DNA of 64,000 bases from Bdellovibrio bacteriovorus. GTDB lineage: Bacteria; Bdellovibrionota; Bdellovibrionia; Bdellovibrionales; Bdellovibrionaceae. The translations under genes were made by a program, and so were the position numbers. Shown piece by piece: positions 59,311 through 63,138 of this stretch; position 1 is the first letter of the stretch; each line of letters starts with the position of its first letter. Under the pieces are notes generated by a model. The model did no database searches, had not been told where the DNA came from, and was given only the letters and a program-made list of their open reading frames with translations. The DNA is taken from the NCBI RefSeq assembly GCF_002208115.1, contig NZ_CP020946.1:744001-808000 (forward strand), written 5' to 3'.

Positions 59311-60765
59311 ATGTGGAATAAACTCTGGAAGACTCGCAGTTATCGCTACAAGACGCTGGCACTGCTTATCGGCGCGATGATTCCCCTGTGGGCGATTGTT
59401 CTTTTCTATGTGCTTCCGCTGGTGCGTGAGAACATGTACGAAGACCGCCGCGTGGCGATTCGCGCCACAGTCGATATCGCCACCAAAGTGCTGGAATTTT
59501 ATCACGATCAGTATCAGCAAAAAATTCTGACAGAAGATGAAGCCAAGAAGCAGGCGCTGGCAGCGGTGGCAAAACTTCGCTACAGCGGTAACGAGTACTT
59601 CTGGATCAACGATCTTCATCCGACCATGCTTATGCATCCGATCAAACCGGAATTGAACGGCAAGGACCTTTCAGGTTTTAAAGACCCCAATGGTTTCCAT
59701 TTGTTCGTGGCCTTTGCTGAAAAAGGAAAGACTGCGGAAGGTGAGGGTTTTGTTCCTTATCTGTGGCCGAAGCCGGGGTCTCCGAATCCGGAACCCAAGA
59801 TCAGCTTCGTTCGCAATTTCAAACCGTGGCAATGGATCGTGGGCAGTGGCGTTTACGTCGATGACGTGGAAACGGCCATCGGAAACTTCCGAAATAAAGT
59901 TCTGATTGGCTTCACCCTTGCCTTTGCTGTGGCGTTTGCCTTGTTCTTTGTCTTTGCCAGCCGTTTGATGAACTTCCTGGCGCGCACGGTGAATGATACC
60001 AACGATGCCAGCCAACAAGTGCTGGAGGCGTCCAATATGCTTTCCAGCGCAGGACAAAACGTCGCGCAAGGGGCGGTGGAGTCTGCAGCGCGTATCGAAG
60101 AGACCATGGGTTCAATCAAAAATCTGAATGATATTGTTCAGGCCAATCAGGAAAGAGCCCGTGCGGCGGCCGATCTGGCAAGAAGCTCTGAAAGCGGAGC
60201 TTCCCAAGGGGCTATGGAAGTGAAAAAACTGATTGAATCCATCAACGTCATGTCCAAGATTTCCGGTGAAATCACCTCGGCGATGGACATCATTGATGAT
60301 ATCGCTTTCCAGACGAATCTGCTGGCGCTGAATGCGGCGGTCGAGGCGGCCCGGGCCGGAGAGCAGGGGAAAGGTTTTGCCGTCGTGGCAGAAGCCGTGC
60401 GCAGTCTGGCGCTGAAGTCGGCGCAAGCCGCAAAAGAAGTAAAATCCGTTATCACCAGCAGTGTGACGCAAACCCAAGTGTCCTTGGAGCTTGCAGAACG
60501 CAGTGACCGCGTGCTTGATGGCATTGTCAGCTCGGTGCAAAAAGTGAATGTGTTGAATCAGGAAATTTCAGAAACCACCACGCATCAGTCTGAAGGCATC
60601 CGTGCCATTCACGAAGCTATGGGTTCTTTGGAGCGCCAGACGCAAGCCTTCTCGGCGGCGGCAGAGGAAACAGCAGCCACCTCCGAGGAAATGTCCGCTC
60701 AGGCCAACACGCTTCAGCACATGGTGCACAGTATGGCTACAGAAGTGATCGGTAAGGCCTCTTAG
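59311..60765 (+). CDS. Methyl-accepting chemotaxis protein with single Cache domain
   Basis: 484 residues. TM1 about 17-37, a periplasmic Cache-type sensor ([15 protein letters not shown] and GSGVYVDD, the sCache_2 ends) to about 195, TM2 about 199-219. No HAMP domain is recognisable before the signalling coiled coil. The conserved tip [32 protein letters not shown] is at about 329-361. Binds small ligands and controls CheA. Stop overlaps the convergent HvfC-like gene by 4 bases. Confidence 0.88.
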
Positions 60766-61538
60766 TAGGCCTCTACCGACATCACATCCTCAATGATCCC
60801 GGCTTTCATCATCATTTCAAAAAGCTGGGCGATTCTTTCAGGGCTTAATGAATTTGCATGCGGGGTCAGGGCTTCAGCGACCGTGCGCCCGCTGGCCAGA
60901 GCGCGCAGAATCTGCGCCTCCACGGGTTGCAGTTCCTGCACCAGCACCTTTTTTTGTTTCTTGTGAATCATAAGACTTTGGGGGGTGTTCCAGTTCACAC
61001 CCTCAAACATATAAGCCGGTTCGAAGCGATGCTCCCAGATATCATAGACCGCATACTCGCTTTCAAAAATCTCCATCGCATCAATCATGTGCATCTTCAC
61101 ATCATCCGAATTCAGCAGTTCCTGAATAGTTTCAACCGGCAGCGGCTCCGGGGTTGCCGCGTGTTGCACTTCTTTATGGATCCATTCAAATTTTGCCAGG
61201 TCCGGCAAGAAAGGAATGCCTTTGGCGGTGGAGGTTTCCTGAATGAACCCGGAAAAAGCTTCGCCATAGTCCGCCAGATTATAGGCCACGGACGGCTGGG
61301 CTTCGATGTACTTTCGGCACAGCTCATTGAAGAAGTTGTCACCCAGGACCCAGGCCACGGCCGGATAGGTCGTGCGCAAAGCCTCAGTCAGACGTGCCAC
61401 ATAGGTGCGGTGATAGATCTGAAAGGCCTGCTCAAGGCTGAGCTTTCCGGCGGGTTTCAGATACGCCAGATGCTGCGGATCTGCTTCGGGAGCCAGGATG
61501 TTTCTTTTAAACAGACTCTGTAGTTCGCTCAGTTTCAT
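60762..61538 (-). CDS. DUF2063/HvfC-like MNIO partner
   Basis: 258 residues. N-terminal DUF2063 pattern: [21 protein letters not shown], then [15 protein letters not shown] and [11 protein letters not shown]. The C-terminal part ([19 protein letters not shown]) is winged-helix-like, probably a peptide-recognition domain. In known systems (MbnC, BufC/HvfC) the partner brings a precursor peptide to the MNIO enzyme. Overlaps the MNIO gene by 32 bp. Confidence 0.82.
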
Positions 61539-62361
61539 AGGAATTCTCCAGAATGTAAGCGGCCTTCATCACTTCAACTTCGAGTTCACGGAAATCCGGT
61601 ATGTCATCGTCCCGTTCAATCAGTACCGGCAGGTGACGAACCTGGGGCGCCAGCATTTTAAACAGATCCCAAACTTGCGCCGGAATTTCCTGAGAGTGAG
61701 TGTCATACAGGAAGTCACCATAATCGCTCGGGCCGGACAGGTGAATTTGCGCCACACGGTCCAGTGGAATGTGGTTGATAAAGTATTTTGGGTCAAAGCC
61801 GTGATTGCGGGAGTTCACATAGATGTTGTTCACATCAAGTAACAGCGCGCAGCCGGAACGCTTGCTGACTTCCGAGATAAAGTCCCATTCATTCATGTGG
61901 CTGTGATGATAGCTGATATAAGTCGAAATATTTTCAAGCACCAATGCCCGGCGCAGGAAGTTCTGCACAAAATCGATGTTGTTCACCAGTGTCTGCAGGC
62001 TGTCTTCCGTAAAAGGTATTGGCAGCAGGTTGTGAAAATTCTGACCTGAGATCGAATTCCATGACATGTGATCTGAAACAATGAATGGTTCCACACGTTC
62101 AATCAGTTCGCGCAGTCCCTGCAGGTAATCCACGCGAATGCCCTCGGGCGCACCGATGTTCATGGAAATCCCATGCAGAGCGACGGGATAGTCCTGGCGG
62201 ATGGTTTGCAGCATCTCCAGCGAGCGTCCGTGGGTATGAATGTAGGTTTCAGTCTGCGCCTCGAACCACGCCACCTCGGTGGAGGGGCGCTGTTCAAGAT
62301 AAGAAAAATGCGGGGCCCGCAGGCCCATGCCCACCTTGTGGGAGAAGCTGGAATTTTGCAT
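61507..62361 (-). CDS. MNIO (DUF692) non-heme iron enzyme
   Basis: 284 residues. TIM-barrel DUF692 family with metal-binding motifs: ALHGISMN, SDHMSWN, LENIS, YHHSHMNEWDF, LLDVNNIYVN, IHLSGP and a final acidic pair (VLIERDDDIP). MNIO proteins (MbnB, TglH, BufB) modify cysteine-containing or other precursor peptides with two or three irons. GAGGACGTC before the ATG is a good ribosome site; the ATG is 8 bp after the YceI stop. Confidence 0.87.
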   Translation of the reverse strand: MQNSSFSHKVGMGLRAPHFSYLEQRPSTEVAWFEAQTETYIHTHGRSLEMLQTIRQDYPVALHGISMNIGAPEGIRVDYLQGLRELIERVEPFIVSDHMSWNSISGQNFHNLLPIPFTEDSLQTLVNNIDFVQNFLRRALVLENISTYISYHHSHMNEWDFISEVSKRSGCALLLDVNNIYVNSRNHGFDPKYFINHIPLDRVAQIHLSGPSDYGDFLYDTHSQEIPAQVWDLFKMLAPQVRHLPVLIERDDDIPDFRELEVEVMKAAYILENSYETERTTESV

Positions 62362-62369
62362 GACGTCCT

Positions 62370-62975
62370 CTATTTTTTTGGAGCTGCTGGAACTGCTGCG
62401 ACTTTGGCTTCGCCATCGATTTCGATTTTGATCTTGTCACCGACAACAAATCCGCCCTTGTCCATGGCCTTGTTCCAGTTCAGCCCGAAGTCCTTGCGGT
62501 TGACTTCGCCTTCGGCTTCAAAGGTGACAACGCGATTGCCCCAGGGGTCGGTGACTGCGCCGTTGTAATCAACATCCAGGGTGACTTTCTTGGTGATCCC
62601 GCGAATGGTCAGGTCACCTTCGACTTTGTCGGGTTTGTTCTTGTCGTATTTGACGTTGGTGGATTTAAAAGTCATTTCCGGGTACTTTGCCACATCAAAG
62701 AAGTCCGGACTGCGCATGTGTTTGTCGCGATCGGCTTCATTGGTGTTAATTGAATCGGTTTTGATGGTCACATTGATGTCACTTAACTTCATGGACTTTT
62801 CATCGAACTCGAAACTGCCACTGACCTGGTCGAAACGGCCTTTGACTTTTGAAACCATCAGGTGCGGAGCTGTGAAGGAAACGTTGGTGTGAGCCTTGTC
62901 GACATCAAATTTCGCGGCAAGGGCAGAGGTGGATACCAAAGATGTGGCCATGAAAGACAAGAGCAGCGCGCGCAT
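62370..62975 (-). CDS. YceI-family periplasmic protein
   Basis: 201 residues. Signal peptide MRALLLSFMATSLVSTSALA. Lipocalin-like YceI domain: DVDKAHTNVSFTAPHLMVSKVKG, RDKHMRSPDFFDVAKYPEM, then GDLTIRGITKKVTLD. Binds an isoprenoid or fatty amide in homologues. No cysteine at all, so it is unlikely to be a MNIO Cys substrate. AAGGATCACGT before the ATG. Leads the MNIO-HvfC run. Confidence 0.9.
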   Translation of the reverse strand: MRALLLSFMATSLVSTSALAAKFDVDKAHTNVSFTAPHLMVSKVKGRFDQVSGSFEFDEKSMKLSDINVTIKTDSINTNEADRDKHMRSPDFFDVAKYPEMTFKSTNVKYDKNKPDKVEGDLTIRGITKKVTLDVDYNGAVTDPWGNRVVTFEAEGEVNRKDFGLNWNKAMDKGGFVVGDKIKIEIDGEAKVAAVPAAPKK

Positions 62976-63138
62976 ACGTGATCCTTTCGATTGTTCTTAA
63001 ATAGGTGCTCCGGGATGGAGACGGTATTCATTAACTGTTTTTGATCGAAAGAAGATTTACAAATTAAGAAGCAGAAAGTTTTTAAGATAAAAACAGAAGC
63101 TCAAGGAATATTGTGCGGCGACAGATTTTGGGCAAAAA
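62976..63138. other. Promoter region of YceI operon
   Basis: About 160 bp, AT-rich on the YceI side. No gene or Cys-rich small ORF was found here. Confidence 0.35.

Follow-up and report, generated by a model that had tools for sequence, protein, structure and literature searches.

What does an MNIO act on when no precursor peptide is encoded beside it? The question is raised by an operon of Bdellovibrio bacteriovorus on the minus strand of a 64,000-nucleotide stretch of DNA (hereafter the window), which consists of genes for YceI (62370-62975), an MNIO (61507-62361) and a DUF2063/RRE partner (60762-61538). The original prediction described the operon as YceI, MNIO and DUF2063 only, with no Cys in YceI, and the coordinates and Pfam matches bore this out. 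The first gene encodes a YceI-family periplasmic lipocalin-like protein of 201 aa that is indeed free of Cys. It matched PF04264 with E 2.8e-53 (180.8 bits; cut-off 23.7) and, among the solved YceI structures, E. coli YceI (1y0g, E 4.9e-40). By inspection of the sequence, it has a predicted Sec signal peptide, MRALLLSFMATSLVSTSALA (62916-62975, minus strand).

The MNIO gene follows after a gap of 8 bp (62362-62369, minus strand), and its ribosome-binding site overlaps the YceI stop. Its product (DUF692, MbnB_TglH_ChrH; 284 aa) matched PF05114 with E 1.8e-95 and scored 315.4 bits against the NCBIfam model MNIO_BufB (cut-off 310), which places it in the bufferin-maturase type. The partner gene, which shares 32 bp with the MNIO gene, encodes a DUF2063 plus RRE-type protein of 258 aa (PME type 1, HvfC-like) that exceeded the cut-off of PF09836 (E 9.1e-20); it also aligned with the HvfC model over nearly its full length (residues 37-245, E 4.6e-15), with a score under that model's cut-off. 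The genome, a single contig of 3.77 Mb, has only one MNIO and one DUF2063 gene, together with five YceI genes. A contig search with the MNIO protein gave a match in one MAG only. The lack of a precursor in this arrangement is not a product of chance, since nine other congeners have the three genes in the same way, and most of them share the protease and chemoreceptor neighbours as well.

We looked for the missing precursor at the locus and throughout the genome. In a six-frame search of the locus, no small exported ORF rich in Cys turned up in the YceI-MNIO gap or in the flanks, in agreement with the original prediction, and the operon lacks the exported Cys-rich precursor gene that marks bufferin operons of the BufA2 type. 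At the precursor-less loci of the genus, the six-frame search also ruled out that a precursor had escaped notice through its reading frame or a wrongly called start. The original prediction would have been refuted by a clear precursor gene just outside the window, or by a co-regulated DUF2282 gene elsewhere, which would make this an ordinary split bufferin system. Neither was found, and the operon is thus not an ordinary split DUF2282 system: the window and the 19 kb past its right edge contained no convincing exported Cys-rich small ORF, a scan of six other 19-kb stretches together with the window gave none either, and the best DUF2282 score in the whole genome was 13.6 bits (cut-off 22.4).

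A BufA2 profile built from 20 BufA2-like precursors of the phylum had no match with an E of 10 or lower in the window's genome. Across the 24 genomes of the genus, its credible matches were confined to two (G145 and G127), and the NCBIfam BufA2 model agreed, finding these two genomes only. A Buf1-like profile, for which the two congener BufA2 genes served as a positive control and were weakly found, had no match in the window's genome, and a mixed profile of the phylum's other bufferin-like precursors found nothing credible there. Thus, none of five profiles recognised a precursor anywhere in this genome. As the genome was searched by models, and ORF by ORF over a small part of its length, a novel precursor family outside the known ones is possible.

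We also sought a co-regulated precursor through the upstream region. Intergenic comparison revealed a conserved element, TTAATTTGTAAA (63056-63067, minus strand), a putative part of a promoter or operator, whose core TAATTTG is retained across the genus. The element precedes the operon in most of the genus, whether a precursor is present or not. In a genome-wide search of the window's genome, the exact 12-mer occurred in a single copy, at this operon alone; matches with one mismatch were mostly intragenic and no commoner than those of a reversed control. One congener that lacks YceI (G065) has a close variant of the element immediately before the MNIO gene.

The origin of the operon was clarified by comparing gene neighbours across the Bdellovibrionota, as the original prediction had proposed; this comparison revealed an ancestral order of YceI, BufA2, MNIO and DUF2063. 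MNIOs were present in 106 of 291 genomes of the phylum, and about 100 of the surveyed loci were read. A BufA2-like precursor was found at 55 of 102 loci, and at many of the remaining loci the MNIO is preceded by an exported Cys-rich ORF of another kind. The order YceI - BufA2 - MNIO - DUF2063 is frequent in the phylum, and G145 and G127 of the same genus retain it, with ∼310 bp between YceI and MNIO. The precursor of G145 exceeded the curated BufA2 cut-off as a protein, and in the genome search those of both genomes exceeded it. The other 15 loci of the genus, that of the window included, are without a precursor.

A tree of 98 MNIOs placed the genus in a single clade (100/100), nested among YceI-BufA2 operons. 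This nesting, together with the order kept by two congeners, led us to conclude that the precursor was lost within the genus and that the operon in the window is a bufferin operon of the BufA2 type after loss of its precursor gene. The loss took place once or twice, and the two are not told apart: a single loss was not rejected (p-AU 0.37), and the YceI-MNIO junctions differ between two precursor-less groups. The gene calls of the relatives are mechanical ORFs, for loci outside the genus the lack of a precursor refers to the locus alone, and locus L028 is labelled precursor-less in the tree, though reading of its gap recovered a precursor. Among the other loci, one genome (G150) has two related MNIO loci, L074 and L075, with a BufA2-like precursor at one only. 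Another congener (G154), which has no such operon, carries tandem, unrelated-looking MNIO genes (388 and 266 aa; L021) in a different cluster, possibly another RiPP pathway.

We next consider the state of the enzyme. Nine iron-site positions (H63, H98, E143, D176, N179, H207, D220, H222 and E249) were picked by conservation and known motifs; N179 (codon at 61825-61827, minus strand) was mapped to HvfB N175, and D220 and H222 (codons of D220-T221-H222 at 61696-61704, minus strand) to HvfB D242 and H244, through the 3bww alignment (PMC13419390). All nine residues are intact in the MNIO of the window, which by these residues is predicted to be catalytically competent. They are likewise intact in 92 of the 98 MNIOs, and none of the six with an altered iron site has a detected precursor at its locus. 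In the window's lineage, every one of the ten species keeps all nine residues across deep divergence. All four sister species carry both N179A and H222K, and all four have a Csp-like gene beside the operon; the MNIO of G065 is changed at six of the nine positions. In another family of the order, one MNIO (L033, genome G057) independently lost the residues at the E143, N179, H207, H222 and E249 positions, and no precursor was detected there; the MNIOs closest to it in the tree come with Buf1-like precursors. As HvfB activity requires each of N175, D242 and H244 (PMC13419390), we predict that the four sister MNIOs are pseudoenzymes. This stays a prediction, since equivalent changes leave some activity in MbnB.

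Selection was compared by Nei-Gojobori counting of dN/dS between the window's trio and the closest pair of predicted pseudoenzymes. In the trio, the MNIO had the lowest dN/dS of the operon (0.011-0.018), with 0.05-0.09 for YceI and 0.04-0.07 for the partner; such values indicate strict purifying selection. In the pseudoenzyme pair, the MNIO rose to 0.13, and its partner and YceI were not relaxed. The contrast in the MNIO was significant in each comparison, the pairs not being mutually independent (Fisher p 6e-5 to 3e-6), and Fisher comparisons detected no relaxation in the partner, YceI or the neighbouring protease. Pairs of precursor-bearing loci of the phylum gave 0.037-0.076, at much larger distances than the pairs within the genus. 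Some other positions have moved in the window's lineage. Of the 81 MNIOs from outside the genus, 78 have N at position 39; within the lineage, six of the ten species have T or S there, and the pseudoenzyme group has D. C100 and A209, otherwise near-invariant like N39, are also changed. A substrate-side constraint may have been altered in this lineage; N39 and the other changed residues are putative neighbours of the active site.

In six congeners, the operon is adjoined by a gene for a protein of 132-143 aa with 12-14 Cys, which resembles the Csp-type four-helix cytosolic copper storage proteins. These loci (L017, L018, L019, L020, L022 and L023), in which the gene is convergent with the downstream end of the operon, belong to both precursor-bearing congeners and the four pseudoenzyme species. 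The likeness is by resemblance only, the DUF326 match being sub-threshold, and the window genome's own homologue lies outside the operon and far from it (C1:2210137-2210511). We did not take this protein as the MNIO substrate, as it occurs in 23 of the 24 genomes of the genus wherever the operon lies and has no evident signal peptide.

Among known systems, the product of a bufferin operon is a thiooxazole-bearing, copper-binding peptide. With operons of the BufA2 type (Buf2, Buf_6/12Cys), from which descent is direct by tree and gene order, the operon in the window shares an MNIO above the BufB cut-off, a DUF2063/RRE partner directly after it and the gene order; it differs in that YceI leads the operon and that BufA2 is absent from the operon and, by profile search, from the genome. 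The HvfABC oxazolin system of Haemophilus likewise has an MNIO with an HvfC-like partner and the same iron-site residues. However, our proteins fell below the curated models (HvfB 233.4 bits, cut-off 360; HvfC 56.1 bits, cut-off 142), and no EGKCG-type precursor was recognised here. The BcnA/LcoA system of Burkholderia shares a periplasmic YceI-family lipocalin, but an adjoining cytochrome b561 gene is missing here, the operon partners being the MNIO and DUF2063. An orphan MNIO is not new in itself, since ∼4000 main-cluster MNIOs without a known adjacent precursor have been reported (PMC12452194). That 2025 landscape gathered exported Cys-containing precursors of <200 residues, or Cys-containing proteins without a signal peptide, and by these criteria a Cys-free exported YceI of 201 residues falls outside both collections.

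Taken together, we favour, with moderate confidence, the explanation that the MNIO is a still-active bufferin maturase that works in trans on an unrecognised substrate, having come from a BufA2 operon whose precursor was deleted; its activity, the trans mode of action and the substrate class are the parts that we infer. The precursor gene would have been deleted from YceI - BufA2 - MNIO - DUF2063 in this Bdellovibrio lineage, with the enzyme and the partner staying functional. The RRE part of the partner probably still recruits a peptide or an exported protein, and, like HvfC with HvfB (PMC13419390), the partner would let the MNIO form an active mixed-valent iron centre. The substrate, oxidised by the MNIO at a Cys or some other residue, would be encoded elsewhere and fall outside the known families of bufferin precursors. 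It is conceivable, though somewhat doubtful, that the MNIO-partner pair was re-targeted after the loss, possibly to a full-size exported protein other than a bufferin, and that the sister enzymes became pseudoenzymes. A split bufferin system, in which a Cys-rich exported precursor encoded elsewhere has diverged beyond the profiles while chemistry and copper role are unchanged, appears unlikely. It would suit the intact, strictly conserved enzyme and partner and the small part of the genome read ORF by ORF, and modification of stand-alone bufferin precursors from another locus has been proposed (PMC12452194); yet the BufA2, DUF2282/Buf1 and mixed profiles found nothing credible in this genome, even though the BufA2 and Buf1-like profiles do detect the precursors of both congeners. 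Re-targeting and precursor divergence are not separated by these data, as model searches are blind to a novel precursor family. We consider it improbable that the substrate-less pair is a non-catalytic or decaying remnant, with a structural or binding role or on its way to disappearance as in the sister species. The loss of iron-site residues in those species and the changes at N39, C100 and A209 point in that direction, and the N39 changes, which could mark early relaxation, count against the explanation that we favour; strict conservation alone does not prove catalysis either. On the other hand, the iron site is complete throughout the window's lineage, and no other protein of the operon is as constrained as the MNIO.

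The original prediction offered an either/or, of which a substrate in trans, or a changed one, survives as the best remaining reading, and the proposal that the enzyme acts on YceI or its ligand is not supported. YceI adjoins the MNIO, is exported and occupies the usual position of the precursor, and some MNIOs modify Asp, Asn or Phe rather than Cys (PMC12452194). Nevertheless, we regard YceI or its bound lipid as a very improbable substrate. Of the 81 loci outside the genus, 16 have YceI on the same strand and no more than three genes away, and all 16 carry a precursor-like ORF; YceI is usually Cys-free beside true BufA2 precursors too. Its side varies: at three of these loci (L101, L110 and L111), YceI lies downstream of DUF2063 rather than upstream of the precursor, which suggests that it joined bufferin operons more than once. 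Moreover, conservation of YceI persists where the iron site of the MNIO is damaged, and the gene is missing in G065, whose MNIO is degraded too. The C-terminal Ala/Pro/Lys tail of YceI was ruled out as a core peptide, being variable in sequence and length.

Under the favoured explanation of action in trans, YceI would be an envelope protein with an accessory role, carried over from the bufferin operon, and it is likely such an accessory rather than a substrate. It probably serves in envelope stress. The YceI family binds isoprenoid or quinone ligands, which for this protein is family-level knowledge, and a Burkholderia YceI lipocalin helps to shield membranes from lipid peroxyl radicals (PMC9113575); membrane protection of this kind would suit a copper-stress operon.

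In the literature searched, we found no mention of a link between YceI and MNIOs or bufferins, and as far as searched, three things are new: the traced precursor loss, the contrast between intact enzymes and broken ones in a single genus, and the association with YceI. For thousands of MNIOs no precursor has been assigned, and it is a general question whether they reflect decay, precursors in trans or other protein targets. The question is testable within this one genus, which offers for comparison precursor-bearing species, precursor-less species whose enzyme is intact and strictly conserved, and species in which the iron site is broken. If the MNIO is active, whatever shifts in mass upon its deletion is the substrate. 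The survey ties the YceI lipocalin to bufferin operons across the Bdellovibrionota, and if re-targeting is true, the MNIO would have become a protein-modifying enzyme in one lineage and a pseudoenzyme in its sisters.
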